From NCBI RefSeq assembly GCF_017641085.1, contig NZ_JAEPPI010000002.1, forward strand, positions 248,001 through 312,000: a DNA stretch of 64,000 bases, written 5' to 3'. The translations under genes and the position numbers were made by a program. Source of the stretch: Gracilimonas sp. Lineage in GTDB: Bacteria > Bacteroidota > Rhodothermia > Balneolales > Balneolaceae. How positions within the stretch are numbered: position 1 is the first letter of the stretch; the number at the start of each line of letters is the position of its first letter. This document shows positions 28,168 to 34,328 of the stretch, piece after piece. The notes beneath the pieces are model-generated. The model saw only the letters and a list, made by a program, of their open reading frames with translations. It ran no database searches and had not been told where the DNA came from.

Positions 28168-29103
28168 CTATTTCGGCTCCAGGTACTGAAGGCTGAACCA
28201 ATCTTTTTCATCGGTCCATACTTTCTTCACTTCAAACCAGGGAGATACAATTTCGCCAAACTCCTCCAGGGTGTATTTATGAGAGTTTTCGGTGTGAATG
28301 CATTCACCTTCCCTGAAAGAAATGCACGTTCCGTTGACTTCCACCTCATGATCTTCCTTGCAAACCAAATGCATTTCGATGCGGCTTTCTTCTTCATTCC
28401 AAATCGCTTTGTGATCGAACAGGTCCGGATCAAAATCGGTGCCTAATTCCCGGTTTATATGCCGGAGAATATTCTTGTTGAATGCAGCCGTTACCCCTTT
28501 CGAATCGTTATAAGCGGCAAGCAGAACATCAATCTCTTTTTTAAGATCAACTCCAATCAGAAAAGCTCCTTCCCGGCCAACAATATCAGCAACCACACTG
28601 AGAAATCGATCTACGGTGTCTCTCTTAAAATTCCCAATGGTCGATCCCGGGAAAAAAACCACCTTTCTCCCCTCAGGTAATGAATCGGGAAAGTCTATGG
28701 AATGGGTGTAATCTGCCTGCAGCGGCTCGATGGTGATTTCCGGAAATGCTTTTTGCAACTCGGATGCTACGCTAAACAGATAGTCGCCGGAAATATCGAT
28801 GGGAATGTAGCCGGCTATATTGTTCAGGCCTTTCAGCAAGATCCGGGTTTTATCACTGCTTCCGCTGCCCGGCTCAATCAAAATAACTTCATCGCCCAAA
28901 AAGCACCCGATTTCCTCTACGTTCTGCTTCAGGATATCCCGTTCTGTCCGCGTTGGATAATATTCCTCCAGCTCCGTAATCTCATCAAATAGTTTTGAGC
29001 CTCTTTCATCATAAAAATATTTACTGGGCAGTGATTTCTGAGGCCCGGTCAATCCATACAGCACTTCATCCCGCATAGATTTCCGCTCTTTAACTTTGGT
29101 CAT
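28168..29103 (-). CDS. egtD: L-histidine N-alpha-methyltransferase (EgtD family)
   Basis: EgtD trimethylates histidine to hercynine with S-adenosylmethionine, the first step of ergothioneine synthesis. The 311-residue product shows the family's SLPSKYFYDERGSKLFDEI start, TRTERDIL, the SAM motif IEPGSGSSDKTR, YIPIDISG, and VVFFPGSTIGNF. Length is typical. It follows egtB by 73 bp on the same strand, so the pair is likely an operon. egtA, egtC and egtE are not here, as in many non-actinobacterial producers. Confidence 0.92.
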   Translation of the reverse strand: MTKVKERKSMRDEVLYGLTGPQKSLPSKYFYDERGSKLFDEITELEEYYPTRTERDILKQNVEEIGCFLGDEVILIEPGSGSSDKTRILLKGLNNIAGYIPIDISGDYLFSVASELQKAFPEITIEPLQADYTHSIDFPDSLPEGRKVVFFPGSTIGNFKRDTVDRFLSVVADIVGREGAFLIGVDLKKEIDVLLAAYNDSKGVTAAFNKNILRHINRELGTDFDPDLFDHKAIWNEEESRIEMHLVCKEDHEVEVNGTCISFREGECIHTENSHKYTLEEFGEIVSPWFEVKKVWTDEKDWFSLQYLEPK

Positions 29104-29176
29104 TTATTTCTGTAGCTGTTTCTCTGATACATTCCTCTAACAGATGTCTCAATCCAATCATTTATTACGGAGCAAT

Positions 29177-30469
29177 TTATTTTGCAAGCCGGATTCCGCT
29201 AAACTGCCAGCGGGCATCCGCATGGAAAAAATTTCGGTAAGTCTTACGGATATGGGTTTGAGAAGTGGCACACGATCCGCCTCTTAACACATATTGATTG
29301 GCCATGAATTTCCCGTTGTATTCCCCAAGTGCACCCGGCAGTGGTTTGTAGTTGGGATAGGGAGCATACGCACTCATCGTCCATTCCCATACATCTCCAT
29401 ACATCTGCTTCAGCTTTTCAGGAGAGTTTTCCGGAGCTGTGGGATGAAAGTTTCCGTCTTCCACAAAGTTGCCTTTTACCGGCAAATCTCCGCAAGCATG
29501 TTCCCATTCCTGTTCGGTGGGTAAGCGGACTCCCTTCCAGCGGGCAAAGGCATCTGCTTCGTAATAGCTGACATGGGTAACCGGTTCATTCGGGTCAACC
29601 TCCCGGGCCCCGGTCAAGGTAAATTGCATCCAATTGCCCTCCCGCTGAAACCAATACAGCGGAGCCTTCCACTCATTATTTTTTACGGCCGACCATCCCT
29701 CATCCAGCCATAACTCAGACCGTGAATAACCACCGTCGTTCATAAACTCCAGGTACTCGCCGTTGGTGATGAGCCGGTCGGCCAGTTCAAAATCCTGTAC
29801 CAGTGTTCGATGCCTCGGGTGTTCGTTATCATAGGTAAATTCTCCGCCGGCGTTACCCACCTCAGTAACCTGCTCTTCGAACGGAACCCAGATGATGGGT
29901 TCGGCTTCCGGCAGCGGCTTATGATCTCCTTCCCGGTATTTCGGCAACAGCGGATTCTGCCCAAGCATATACTTCAGATCCGTCAGTATAAGTTCCTGAT
30001 GCTGCTGCTCGTGATGAATACCAATTTCAATAACTTTCGCCGCTTCCTTCCAGGTTTTTTCTGAAGCCGACTCAATAAACTCTTCCAGCTGTTCATTCAC
30101 ATACTGCCGGTATTCGAACACTTCCTTAACGGTTGGGCGTGACAATACTCCACGTTTGGCCCGCGTAAACGGAACCCCGGTTTGCAGGTAATAGGAGTTA
30201 AAGAAGTAGGCGTATTGGGGGTGAAGGCTTTCAAAATCCTCATCAAACTTTTCGAGTACAAAGGTTTCGAAAAACCAGCTGGTGTGGGCCAGGTGCCATT
30301 TGGTGGGGCTGGCAAACTCCGAAGCCTGGATCACAAAATCCTCTACTTCCAGAGGCTCGCATAGGTACAGGCTAAAAGACCGGACGGTTTTAAAATGCTG
30401 TAGAAGGTGGGCTTTGGAAAGGCGGGAATCAGTGCTCTCTGATATAGATTCCTGGGTAGTTGTAGTCAT
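29177..30469 (-). CDS. egtB: Hercynine oxygenase, sulfoxide synthase (EgtB family)
   Basis: EgtB is a non-haem iron enzyme that joins hercynine to a thiol (gamma-glutamylcysteine or cysteine) with O2. The 430-residue product has an N-terminal DinB-like helical domain with the iron ligands HEQQHQE (H153, H157, within HxxxHxE) and an upstream His in WHLAHTSWFFETF. A C-terminal formylglycine-generating-enzyme-like domain (about 205-430) has RLPTEQEWEHAC, DVWEWTMSAY and LRGGSCAT. It is transcribed ahead of egtD. Which thiol donor it uses cannot be read safely from sequence. Confidence 0.92.
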   Translation of the reverse strand: MTTTTQESISESTDSRLSKAHLLQHFKTVRSFSLYLCEPLEVEDFVIQASEFASPTKWHLAHTSWFFETFVLEKFDEDFESLHPQYAYFFNSYYLQTGVPFTRAKRGVLSRPTVKEVFEYRQYVNEQLEEFIESASEKTWKEAAKVIEIGIHHEQQHQELILTDLKYMLGQNPLLPKYREGDHKPLPEAEPIIWVPFEEQVTEVGNAGGEFTYDNEHPRHRTLVQDFELADRLITNGEYLEFMNDGGYSRSELWLDEGWSAVKNNEWKAPLYWFQREGNWMQFTLTGAREVDPNEPVTHVSYYEADAFARWKGVRLPTEQEWEHACGDLPVKGNFVEDGNFHPTAPENSPEKLKQMYGDVWEWTMSAYAPYPNYKPLPGALGEYNGKFMANQYVLRGGSCATSQTHIRKTYRNFFHADARWQFSGIRLAK

Positions 30470-31059: not shown

Positions 31060-32052
31060 TTAGTTATTTGGCCACTCAGCCCAGTTACTGCAGTGTCCTC
31101 CTTTATCTGTTCCTTTCAGTTCTCTTTGAGGTCCGGTATAACCTGCGTTCATTACGGCTAATGGAGCAGCTTTAAACTTGCCGTTTTTTGTGATAAACAA
31201 TTTACCAAAATGGGCCTGACTTAATCCATGACCTGCTTCATGAAGAGCAACTGTTTCAAGGTCAACACCAGAACCATCATTAGTCCATGCATAATTTGGA
31301 TCGTAATAGATCTCTCTGAAGGCCACATCACTTTTTCCATTGTTATCTATATCAGTAGGGCCGTCAGGTCCAACAAATACTAAAGTAAATGCAACTCCTA
31401 AAATACCTCCCCCAAAATTAATGTCTCTGAAGCCGGCATGCTGTACATCTGCAAACACAAATGGACTGCCACCTAATCCATTCAGAAAGGCGATGTAACC
31501 TATATCAAGGCCAAAATCAGCATTTTGTGAAAGTGAAAGATCAGAGCATGACTGCGAATCCCATGTTCCCATTGCACTTTGAATGGAATTAGTGGCAGCC
31601 GCAGCAGTTAACCCGCCAAAGAATGGTACCGCATCTCCGGTTTGGTCAATTGCGTATGTGATATCATCATTCGCTAACGGAATCGGGCCGTTATTGCTCC
31701 AGGTTCTTCTTGCGTCATTAGGTACAAAATCTGCACCAAGCTGTTTGTTACCAACATCTTTGGCGATAACAGTATTTCCAACTTCTCCGCTACCTTCTGC
31801 TGTTATATACTCAGCCATAAGTACACGATAGTTCTGTTCCTTAATGGCCATATACTCATTCATTGAATCCATGATATCAGCAAGGCTGACTTCATCACTC
31901 AATGTTTGCCCCGAGTTGTTAAGGGCTTTTCCCTTATAAGTTATGGGCGGTTCATCCAGCGAGTTTTTTGGTTCAGTGACCTGATTTTCACATCCTACAA
32001 ATGCCATAGACATAATTAGGGTCATTGCAAGTAAATTGATCGATCTTTTCAT
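31060..32052 (-). CDS. Metzincin-like zinc metalloprotease lipoprotein
   Basis: A 330-residue protein with lipobox AFVGC (Cys 21). Residues of about 30-165 are a helical region of unknown family. The C-terminal part carries the zinc motif HEAGHGLSQAH (H271, E272, H275, H281). About 20 residues later VMNAGY (Met301) fits the Met-turn of metzincins. DNNGKSDVAFREIYYD upstream resembles the strand region of matrixin-type (M10-like) proteases. Secreted and lipid-anchored proteolysis is inferred. No inhibitor propeptide with a Cys switch was recognised. Confidence 0.8.
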   Translation of the reverse strand: MKRSINLLAMTLIMSMAFVGCENQVTEPKNSLDEPPITYKGKALNNSGQTLSDEVSLADIMDSMNEYMAIKEQNYRVLMAEYITAEGSGEVGNTVIAKDVGNKQLGADFVPNDARRTWSNNGPIPLANDDITYAIDQTGDAVPFFGGLTAAAATNSIQSAMGTWDSQSCSDLSLSQNADFGLDIGYIAFLNGLGGSPFVFADVQHAGFRDINFGGGILGVAFTLVFVGPDGPTDIDNNGKSDVAFREIYYDPNYAWTNDGSGVDLETVALHEAGHGLSQAHFGKLFITKNGKFKAAPLAVMNAGYTGPQRELKGTDKGGHCSNWAEWPNN

Positions 32053-32442
32053 TTTGATCCCCGTTAGGTTATTTTTTTAAACCCATCATTAATTTGATTT
32101 TCAAATCATGAAGACTACAGTAAGACCCAATTTAATCGCTTACCTCTTATAGTCAATGGTGGCCCTAAATTCTAATGTTTGCTTAAAGCTACAAACAATC
32201 ACAAATCCTGGTAGGAGGAAGACATAGATGTATGGAGCTCTATGCCATTTCGTGATATTTGAGGATGAAAAGAATGGCTAAAACAAAAATGTTTCCCTCA
32301 TGTGAGTAAGCGAACATAAGCTAATCAATAGGACTAATCACTGGGCTTGTTATTTGTCCTATAACTCACTGATATATAATTTGATAAGTTAAATCTTGAT
32401 GGCTAAAATCAGCTTATAAAATGGAAAACAAAATCACTTCAA
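32053..32442. other. A+T-rich intergenic region
   Basis: A 390-bp gap between the metzincin (minus) and the BRCT-like gene (plus). The only notable site is AGGAGG at 32213-32218 in front of an ATG at 32228 opening a 17-codon frame (stop at 32281). This could be a leader peptide or a gene remnant but cannot be shown. Promoters for both flanking genes must lie here; none was clear. Confidence 0.4.
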
Positions 32443-32877
32443 ATGGAAGCAAAAAAGAGGCTAATCAATATTATAAAGGATAGCACTGATGAGGTTAATA
32501 ATTCAAAGCTATCGAACCCGTTCTACGGAAAAAAGATATTCTTTAGCGATAATTGTACTGGTCCTAAGATAAATCGAACTACTTTAATTGGTTACATAGG
32601 AGCTACATCTGGAACAAACAAAGAGCTCAGTAAGGATATAGATTATTGTGTAATTCCTAAGAGTGTTTATTCGAATTTATTAGATGGGAATGTTGATAGT
32701 ATCACAGAGAATATAATTTCACTGATACATAATAAATCTGATAAAAAATCTAAGCCAAAAAATACGATACCTGAAACAAGGATAATTACAGAGAATACCC
32801 TCTTTTCACTAGTTTATAGATTTGTAAAAAATGATCCTGTAAAGATGAAACATTATAATAAGCTCCATATTAGCTAG
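32443..32877 (+). CDS. Hypothetical protein with BRCT-like segment
   Basis: A 144-residue basic protein. Residues of about 28-82 (GKKIFFSDNCTGPKINRTTL, YIGATSG, DIDYCVIPKS) follow the layout of a BRCT domain: a first strand after GKK, a helix, a Gly-containing turn, then a strand resembling the xDYLVV of BRCT domains. The likeness is remote. The gene lies 11 bp upstream of an exonuclease that itself ends in a BRCT domain, on the same strand, so they probably form one operon. DNA is clearly more A+T-rich than the flanking core genes, which suggests acquisition by transfer. Confidence 0.6.
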   Translation: MEAKKRLINIIKDSTDEVNNSKLSNPFYGKKIFFSDNCTGPKINRTTLIGYIGATSGTNKELSKDIDYCVIPKSVYSNLLDGNVDSITENIISLIHNKSDKKSKPKNTIPETRIITENTLFSLVYRFVKNDPVKMKHYNKLHIS

Positions 32878-32888
32878 AATTAAAAATT

Positions 32889-34136
32889 ATGTATTCGATT
32901 ATTGATATAGAGACAACTGGGTTTTCACCTGCCAAAGGTGACAGAATTCTTGAGCTTGGTGTTATAAAAATCCAGGAGGATGGTCAAATGATTGATAAGT
33001 ATTCGACCTTAATAAACCCTGATAGGGATATATCAAATTACAATATCCATGGAGTCAAGCCTAGTTTAGTTACAAAGGCCCCTAAGCTAGATGAAGTAAA
33101 AGATTATATAAAGTCATTCATTAATGGAACAACTCTTGTAGCACATAACGCCCCTTTTGATTTTAGGTTTTTACAAAATGAGCTTATAGACGAAGAAATT
33201 AAGCTTAATGGTATTTGCACTATTAAGTTGTCAAGAATAGTTGATCCCTCTCCACCTTCGAGAAGCCTAGAAAATTTATGCACTTACTATGACATTAAAA
33301 TTAAAAACACTCACGAAGCTCTATCAGATGCTCTCGCAACTTATAAGCTCTTTTTATTTCTAAAAAAAGAATATTCAAATCTTTTTGGAAGCCACCAGTT
33401 TCAAGATCAAATGGCTAATCCTCTTTCTTTAAATCTTAAAAACAGCATCTCACTTAAAAGGGTTGAATACAAACGGAAGGATGCTATTTGTTCAAATAAA
33501 AAAGAGAAAAGTAAACTACAGGTATTTATAGAAAGGCTACCTACAGATACCATTTCTGATAATGAAAATTCTCTGAATTATCTTGACACATTAAATGAAG
33601 TTTTATCTGATAGAGTAATCAGTGATACAGAGCTTACTAAGCTTGAGGAATTAGCACAAGAATTTGGTTTAACAAAAGAGAATATAATTCACTTACATAA
33701 ACGTTATTTAAATGAAGTAATTGAAGAGTATCTCCTTGACGATAGCATATCTGAATTTGAAAAAAATGACTTAGATGATTTAACAAAATTACTCGGGCTT
33801 AATTCAGACGATTTAAATGAACTCATCAAGTCAGCAAAAAAAGACACCTTTTATGATATACAAAAGCCAATAAATGATGTGGAAGGCAAATTGATATGTT
33901 TTACTGGTGCTCTACAGTCTAAAATAAATGGAGTAGAAGTTGATAGATCAAAAGCTCAAAGTCTTGCTCAAAAACATGGGATGATTATCAAAAAGAATGT
34001 TTCAAAAAAGCTAGATTACCTAGTTGTAGCTAATCCACACACTCAGTCAGGAAAGGCAAAGAAAGCCAAAAAATATGGAATAAAGATATTGGCTGAACCT
34101 GAATACTGGCGACTGATTGGGGTTAATGTTGAATAA
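32889..34136 (+). CDS. DnaQ-like 3'-5' exonuclease with C-terminal BRCT domain
   Basis: A 415-residue three-part protein. Residues 1-165 are a DEDDh exonuclease with all five acidic/His residues visible: D6 and E8 (IDIETTG), D91 (HNAPFDFRF), H142 and D147 (HEALSDALAT). Residues 225-315 contain two helical repeats (LSDRVISDTELTKLEELA and LDDSISEFEKNDLDDLTK) resembling TerB-like helical segments. Residues 331-412 are a BRCT domain (GKLICFTGAL, LDYLVVANP). The design suggests a DNA repair or surveillance nuclease that binds breaks or a phospho-partner through BRCT. It is A+T-rich and near tRNA-Val. Confidence 0.85.
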   Translation: MYSIIDIETTGFSPAKGDRILELGVIKIQEDGQMIDKYSTLINPDRDISNYNIHGVKPSLVTKAPKLDEVKDYIKSFINGTTLVAHNAPFDFRFLQNELIDEEIKLNGICTIKLSRIVDPSPPSRSLENLCTYYDIKIKNTHEALSDALATYKLFLFLKKEYSNLFGSHQFQDQMANPLSLNLKNSISLKRVEYKRKDAICSNKKEKSKLQVFIERLPTDTISDNENSLNYLDTLNEVLSDRVISDTELTKLEELAQEFGLTKENIIHLHKRYLNEVIEEYLLDDSISEFEKNDLDDLTKLLGLNSDDLNELIKSAKKDTFYDIQKPINDVEGKLICFTGALQSKINGVEVDRSKAQSLAQKHGMIIKKNVSKKLDYLVVANPHTQSGKAKKAKKYGIKILAEPEYWRLIGVNVE

Positions 34137-34213
34137 TAACATTACCACCAAATAATCGAATATATACTCTCAAAAAGATTTACTAATAATTTGGCGCGTT
34201 TGTACCAAAAAAT

Positions 34214-34251
34214 AAAAAAGCCAGTTAGATATATGACCTAACTGGCTTTTT
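34214..34251 (-). terminator. Terminator of tRNA-Val (bidirectional)
   Basis: Read on the minus strand: AAAAAGCCAGTTAG, loop, CTAACTGGCTTTTTTATTTTTT, a 13-14 bp stem plus T-rich tail directly after the tRNA 3' end. T-runs on both strands let it also stop the exonuclease transcript from the plus side. Confidence 0.85.
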
Positions 34252-34328
34252 GGTGGGCGATGAGGGACTCGAACCCCCGACCCCCTCGGTGTAAACGAGG
34301 TGCTCTGAACCAACTGAGCTAATCGCCC
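34251..34328 (-). tRNA. tRNA-Val (anticodon TAC), CCA encoded
   Basis: Minus-strand cloverleaf: acceptor GGGCGAT pairs with ATCGCCC, followed by discriminator A and an encoded CCA (34251-34253). The D-arm has AGCTCAGTTGGTTCAGAGC. The anticodon stem CCTCG/CGAGG encloses loop TTTACAC with anticodon TAC (valine). The T-arm has GGTTCGAGTCC. A strong promoter lies upstream and a terminator directly downstream. Confidence 0.96.

Follow-up and report, generated by a model that had tools for sequence, protein, structure and literature searches.

Genes of the PDC series are termed phage-defence candidates (PMC11514479), and Shango, which contains a TerB-like protein, protects against phages (PMC10250203). 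Shango is composed of the TerB protein SngA, the ATPase SngB and the helicase SngC. The candidate PDC-S48 (PADLOC profiles PDLC05027 and PDLC05028) joins a DEDDh exonuclease to a helical middle part and a BRCT domain; as far as we found, it is so far known only as a defence-database profile, and our search returned no published experiment on it. In the PADLOC naming, the S in PDC-S marks a single-gene candidate, and such a gene owes its candidate status to lying in defence-rich surroundings. Similar exonucleases occur in other settings. Cap18 (PDB 7t2s), a defence accessory associated with CBASS, is a DEDDh 3'-5' exonuclease of 177 residues with neither a TerB-like nor a BRCT part. In S. aureus DinG, an N-terminal 3'-5' exonuclease of the DEDDh type (PDB 8zef, 9ii8) is joined to helicase action. 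The NCBIfam families PRK06063 and PRK06195, named 'DNA polymerase III epsilon-like', combine a DEDDh exonuclease with a BRCT domain.

The window, by which we mean the whole analysed stretch of 64,000 nucleotides from Gracilimonas sp. (G000), carries a cassette of two genes, the larger of which encodes a protein matching PDC-S48. It is made up and bordered as follows.

32290-34244: inserted A+T-rich segment, 31.4% GC, delimited by BLASTN against the empty site and by composition
32443-32877, + strand: ORF1, 144 aa, tentatively BRCT-like (residues 24-74), a lineage-specific companion
32889-34136, + strand: ORF2, 415 aa, PDC-S48 family (DEDDh exonuclease, TerB-like helical region and BRCT)
32889-33386, + strand: predicted DEDDh 3'-5' exonuclease domain of ORF2, aa 1-166, with D6, E8, D91, H142 and D147
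33561-33848, + strand: putative TerB-like helical region of ORF2, aa 225-320
33876-34124, + strand: C-terminal BRCT domain of ORF2, aa 330-412
34215-34251: terminator-like hairpin between ORF2 and tRNA-Val, 14-bp stem, -18.8 kcal/mol, with A and T runs on either side
34251-34328, - strand: tRNA-Val(TAC), found by ARAGORN and Rfam RF00005, intact, the landmark of the insertion site

ORF1 and ORF2 point in the same direction and are spaced by 11 bp, and the ORF2 stop codon lies 114 bp from tRNA-Val, which is encoded on the opposite strand. The hairpin between them may serve both strands. The GC content is 30.3% in ORF1 (GC3 27.6%) and 32.4% in ORF2 (GC3 24.8%), compared with 49-52% (GC3 about 54%) in nearby housekeeping genes (egtB-like, acetyl-CoA acetyltransferase-like and fadJ-like). 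Positions 32290-34243 (1,954 bp) have the lowest GC among 1,241 segments of that length in the 64 kb, 31.4% versus 44.4% overall. The first-pass annotation had described two co-directional genes 11 bp apart, deviating in base composition from their surroundings and ending about 115 bp from a tRNA gene, and the measurements agree with this description throughout. Metalloprotease-like, eIF1-like, egtB-like, egtD-like, acetyl-CoA acetyltransferase-like and fadJ-like genes make up the flanks; the adjoining genes are ordinary, with no known defence neighbour and no defence island at the window locus. The egtD-like and egtB-like genes are neighbours at 28168-30469 (- strand) and resemble genes of the ergothioneine pathway.

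The cassette is a recent local gain by horizontal transfer, since neither gene was detected in nine sampled congeners and the nearest of them (G001) preserves a near-clean empty site. The same flank genes stand in the same order in G001, the flanking acetyltransferase being 98% identical, and the distance from the metalloprotease-like gene to tRNA-Val is 267 bp there versus about 2.2 kb in the window. BLASTN against this empty site (L067) aligned the flanks at 94% and 98% identity. Collinearity stops at about 32289 and restarts at about 34245; where the window has some 1.95 kb, G001 holds about 30 bp, a tRNA-side terminator hairpin. The hairpin at the same spot in the window differs from that of G001 and is stronger. 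ORF1 and ORF2 are the only genes of the insert, which contains no integrase or transposase. No word of more than 8 bp at the left boundary recurs in the region of the tRNA, so no tRNA-end repeat is seen, and an origin from a prophage or integrative element by way of the tRNA end is not supported. Gene gain beside the tRNA, which had been surmised from the sequence alone, is thus borne out by the presence of the cassette in one genome and its absence from nine congeners, as is the earlier statement that no mobile gene and no direct repeat of the tRNA end could be seen.

We also compared the tRNA flank across eight congeners and found tRNA-Val in all eight whose locus was read. One of them, G007 (L072 1791-3981), carries a different A+T-rich insert (30.4% GC) at the same flank, with four small genes of unknown function and its own hairpin beside the tRNA. 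This independent insert suggests that the flank takes up cargo repeatedly. The metalloprotease-like gene (31060-32052, - strand, in the window) was present in G001 alone among the eight congener loci, so the flank has changed more than once.

ORF2 matches the PDC-S48 profile PDLC05027 over residues 1-411 (profile positions 5-406 of 411; E=2.5e-97). Judged by this match, its architecture is already catalogued and hence not new. The Pfam RNase_T/DEDDh family is matched above gathering (E=1.4e-27); among 33 relatives D6, E8 and D147 are invariant, H142 is kept in at least 90% and D91 in most. An AlphaFold model based on 33 aligned sequences reached a pLDDT of 88.6. Structural re-alignment to the PDB, which spans the exonuclease domain, gave Z values of about 20 to the exonuclease domains of Pol III epsilon, PolC and S. 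aureus DinG, and for the helical and BRCT parts we relied on sequence profiles. With its four acidic residues, its histidine and a DnaQ-like fold in the model, ORF2 is predicted to be an intact DEDDh exonuclease. It is not the housekeeping Pol III epsilon subunit (DnaQ), as there is no ORF2 orthologue in the nine congeners.

The C-terminal BRCT domain scores above the Pfam gathering threshold (PF00533, E=2.7e-7, 31.2 bits versus a cut-off of 21.3, residues 351-403) and is found at E<=0.01 in 21 of the 33 relatives. This C-terminus also aligns with the BRCT matches of proteins of about 700 aa from relatives, presumably LigA. For aa 225-320, the likeness to TerB is weak but consistent. The model places helices at 225-241, 246-258, 263-284, 289-301 and 306-320, and among PDB profile matches the TerB structure 2ou3 ranks first (E=0.0066). 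The Pfam TerB family (PF05099) reaches E<=0.01 in 6 of the 33 relatives, 2.8e-4 at best, and in ORF2 itself stays below threshold (E=0.14, 12.8 bits versus 24.4). The exonuclease and BRCT domains that the first-pass annotation had read in the larger protein are therefore confirmed, while its TerB-like middle finds weak but consistent backing in a PDB profile match and in relatives, and not in the Pfam score of ORF2.

Set beside the described systems, ORF2 resembles PDC-S48 along its full length; the locus departs from it in that ORF1 precedes the gene, both in the window and in a draft MAG discussed below. With Shango it would share the occurrence of a TerB-type domain in defence. However, the nuclease and BRCT parts of PDC-S48 lie outside the Shango core, and SngA, SngB and SngC are absent from the genes flanking the cassette, so the locus is not a Shango system. 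The exonuclease has the same fold as Cap18 (Z 16.7), but ORF2 goes beyond an exonuclease alone, and no CBASS genes were found at the window locus. S. aureus DinG is the top Foldseek match of the exonuclease domain, yet ORF2 has no helicase domain. PRK06063 and PRK06195 are matched above noise but far below their own cut-offs (127 versus 389 and 89 versus 373), and the helical TerB-like middle of ORF2 is an addition to them.

The small protein is more elusive. The first-pass annotation had called it BRCT-like and a partner similar in fold to the larger protein, and neither statement could be established. The BRCT label is weak and is applied tentatively; behind it stands a single Pfam match that falls below the gathering value of 21.3 (14.9 bits, E=0.032). 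A single-sequence AlphaFold model was uninformative (pLDDT 35), hhalign with a 3-row profile gave BRCT a probability of 2%, and the profile comparisons supported neither BRCT nor TerB. ORF1 has no PADLOC or NCBIfam match, and no conserved block is present in its alignment. Weak PDB sequence matches to NSA2, a ribosome biogenesis protein (best E=0.04), were treated as chance.

One relative of ORF1 was found (E=1.1e-15, 31% identity); it immediately precedes an ORF2 relative in G011, a draft Balneolaceae MAG from another genus of the same family (apparently JAFGWN010000012.1). The ORF2 counterparts of the two genomes are 62% identical. The frame of this ORF1 relative (L075 5301-5751) is broken by a small indel, and the downstream exonuclease gene is open; the break may reflect decay, an assembly error or frameshifting. 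Its pieces have no BRCT match, and a nucleotidyltransferase/HepT pair follows the ORF2 relative. Neither 92 family genomes nor plasmids, phages and viral contigs yielded another convincing relative of ORF1, and none is recognisable beside other relatives of ORF2. Homologous gene pairs, which had been put forward as a way to judge the first reading, thus recur once, with a frameshifted ORF1.

Full-length matches to ORF2 are sporadic: they occur in 2 of 394 genomes drawn from the phylum, namely the window genome and Algoriphagus boritolerans (G218), and in 1 of 24 sampled Algoriphagus genomes. Genome contigs searched with the single ORF2 sequence gave no match, and relatives had to be fetched with a three-row alignment. 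It gave 80 loci from species genomes, about 45 of which have the exonuclease and the helical middle. These belong mostly to Actinomycetota, with further members in Bacillota, Verrucomicrobiota, Myxococcota, Pseudomonadota and Bacteroidota; a single clade with full support unites the proteins of the window, G011 and Algoriphagus. In viral contigs, phages and plasmids, matches were exonuclease-only or distant.

Defence genes recur next to these relatives. In Algoriphagus a PDC-S37/Hhe-like protein (DUF4011-helicase-REase-DUF3320) is encoded about 10 bp upstream, and a PDC-S37/Hhe-like helicase gene also adjoins the relative in Leucobacter, Microbacterium and Blastococcus. Type ISP/IIG restriction-modification (R-M) enzymes adjoin it at three loci, one in Microbacterium and two in Demequina, and in two Mycolicibacter it is part of a type I R-M operon with the order hsdM-hsdS-PDC-S48-fic-hsdR (L085 5213-14091, L088 4475-13925). 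Micromonospora antibiotica has a complete Shango locus (SngA 1.3e-94, SngB 1.8e-180, SngC 3.6e-287), and here the C-terminus of SngC is the PDC-S48 exonuclease/TerB-like module itself (9.1e-90; L143 5556-8966, NZ_JAGFWR010000004.1). On plasmids from Arthrobacter crystallopoietes, Nonomuraea and Rhodobacter xanthinilyticus, the matches run past a helicase into the exonuclease, which indicates that the helicase-exonuclease fusion recurs.

Immediate neighbours of ORF2 relatives had PADLOC matches at E<=1e-30 in 12 of 75 cases (a sum over non-overlapping families), compared with 0 of 38 for exonuclease-only relatives, which the same search had fetched. The Fisher p was 0.008 by gene and 0.02 by locus, figures to be read knowing that the control loci have fewer and shorter neighbour genes and that the relatives, which include two Mycolicibacter and two Demequina, are not independent. 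Genes four to five positions away also gave scattered PADLOC matches. This suggests that the association is with defence-rich regions and not strictly with adjacent genes. We dropped these more distant genes as a neighbour control, since they carry defence matches too.

The full-length PDC-S48 match, the defence neighbours of relatives, the Shango fusion and the control count of 0 of 38 make an anti-invader role the best reading. We give a probability of roughly 0.6 to the cassette being a recently gained candidate phage-defence module, its anti-phage activity being something we infer from homology and gene context. LigA carries a BRCT domain that recognises nicks or ends of DNA. By analogy, that of ORF2 would place the protein on ends, nicks or protein-marked sites of invader DNA. 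The TerB-like module, to judge from the Shango fusion, would dock ORF2 to a partner, apparently a helicase or a restriction complex in the relatives, and the exonuclease would then degrade 3' ends of foreign DNA exposed by cutting, unwinding or replication. No helicase gene lies beside ORF2 in the window, so ORF1 is likely its dedicated partner; at a guess, it would be a subunit that confers specificity, or else a regulator protecting host DNA from the exonuclease. A more specific version is tentative, and we consider it doubtful as a whole: ORF1 and ORF2 would form a two-gene defence whose small BRCT-type protein guides or licenses the DEDDh-TerB-BRCT exonuclease, and more broadly PDC-S48 would act as a portable module, a nuclease plugging through its TerB-like domain into Shango, Hhe-like and R-M defences.

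New here are the companion gene ORF1 and the evidence linking the PDC-S48 family to Shango, Hhe-like and R-M systems. Through the type I R-M operons, the Hhe-like helicases and the fusion to the Shango helicase, the relatives tie this family to tested systems, and the prediction follows that a TerB-like domain is what brings an exonuclease to a helicase-based defence. It is worth stressing that G000, with the cassette, and G001, without it, are a natural presence/absence pair which, together with a candidate second subunit, makes the questions of function and partner directly testable.

The first-pass annotation had left repair and anti-invader roles side by side. We favour the latter, and repair is its main rival: the cassette would be mobile but host-serving, with BRCT sitting on nicks or ends and the DEDDh domain trimming 3' ends. 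BRCT domains are typically found in repair proteins, for instance LigA, and Pol III epsilon, PolC and DinG are the closest folds to the ORF2 exonuclease. In addition, the gene that comes after the relative on an Arthrobacter plasmid is 8-oxoguanine glycosylase-like, and many relatives in Corynebacterium and other Actinomycetota, which have no obvious defence neighbour, could be repair proteins. However, the sporadic distribution within genera, the recent insertion and the occurrence of relatives in R-M operons and Shango fusions fit a defence function more readily than housekeeping repair, and we consider this explanation unlikely.

The small ORF1 gene lies 11 bp ahead of the nuclease gene, a typical operon geometry, and the pair might also be toxin-antitoxin-like: a released exonuclease would harm the host and ORF1 would be its inhibitor. 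Inhibitors and specificity factors often diverge fast, and ORF1 has indeed diverged faster than ORF2 between the two carriers (31% versus 62% identity). Nevertheless, the frameshifted ORF1 beside an open ORF2 in G011 (a draft MAG, where an assembly error is possible) and the relatives with no recognisable ORF1 suggest that ORF2 is tolerated without an intact ORF1, which makes such an abortive pair quite improbable. We attach still less weight to the two genes being left-over cargo of a larger mobile element, a prophage or an integrative one, at the tRNA-Val end. Such a remnant would fit A+T-rich cargo next to a tRNA and the independent insert of G007, but there is no integrase, transposase, attachment repeat or phage gene, the junction is near-clean and both ORFs are open. 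Moreover, it would account for the arrival of the cassette and not for its function.

Some relatives carry the same domains within larger proteins. At Corynebacterium loci including L087, L097, L099, L100 and L104, the DEDDh-TerB-like-BRCT part forms the N-terminal third or so of proteins of about 1,050-1,200 aa, and at L087 it is followed by a helix-turn-helix resembling sigma-70 region 4.
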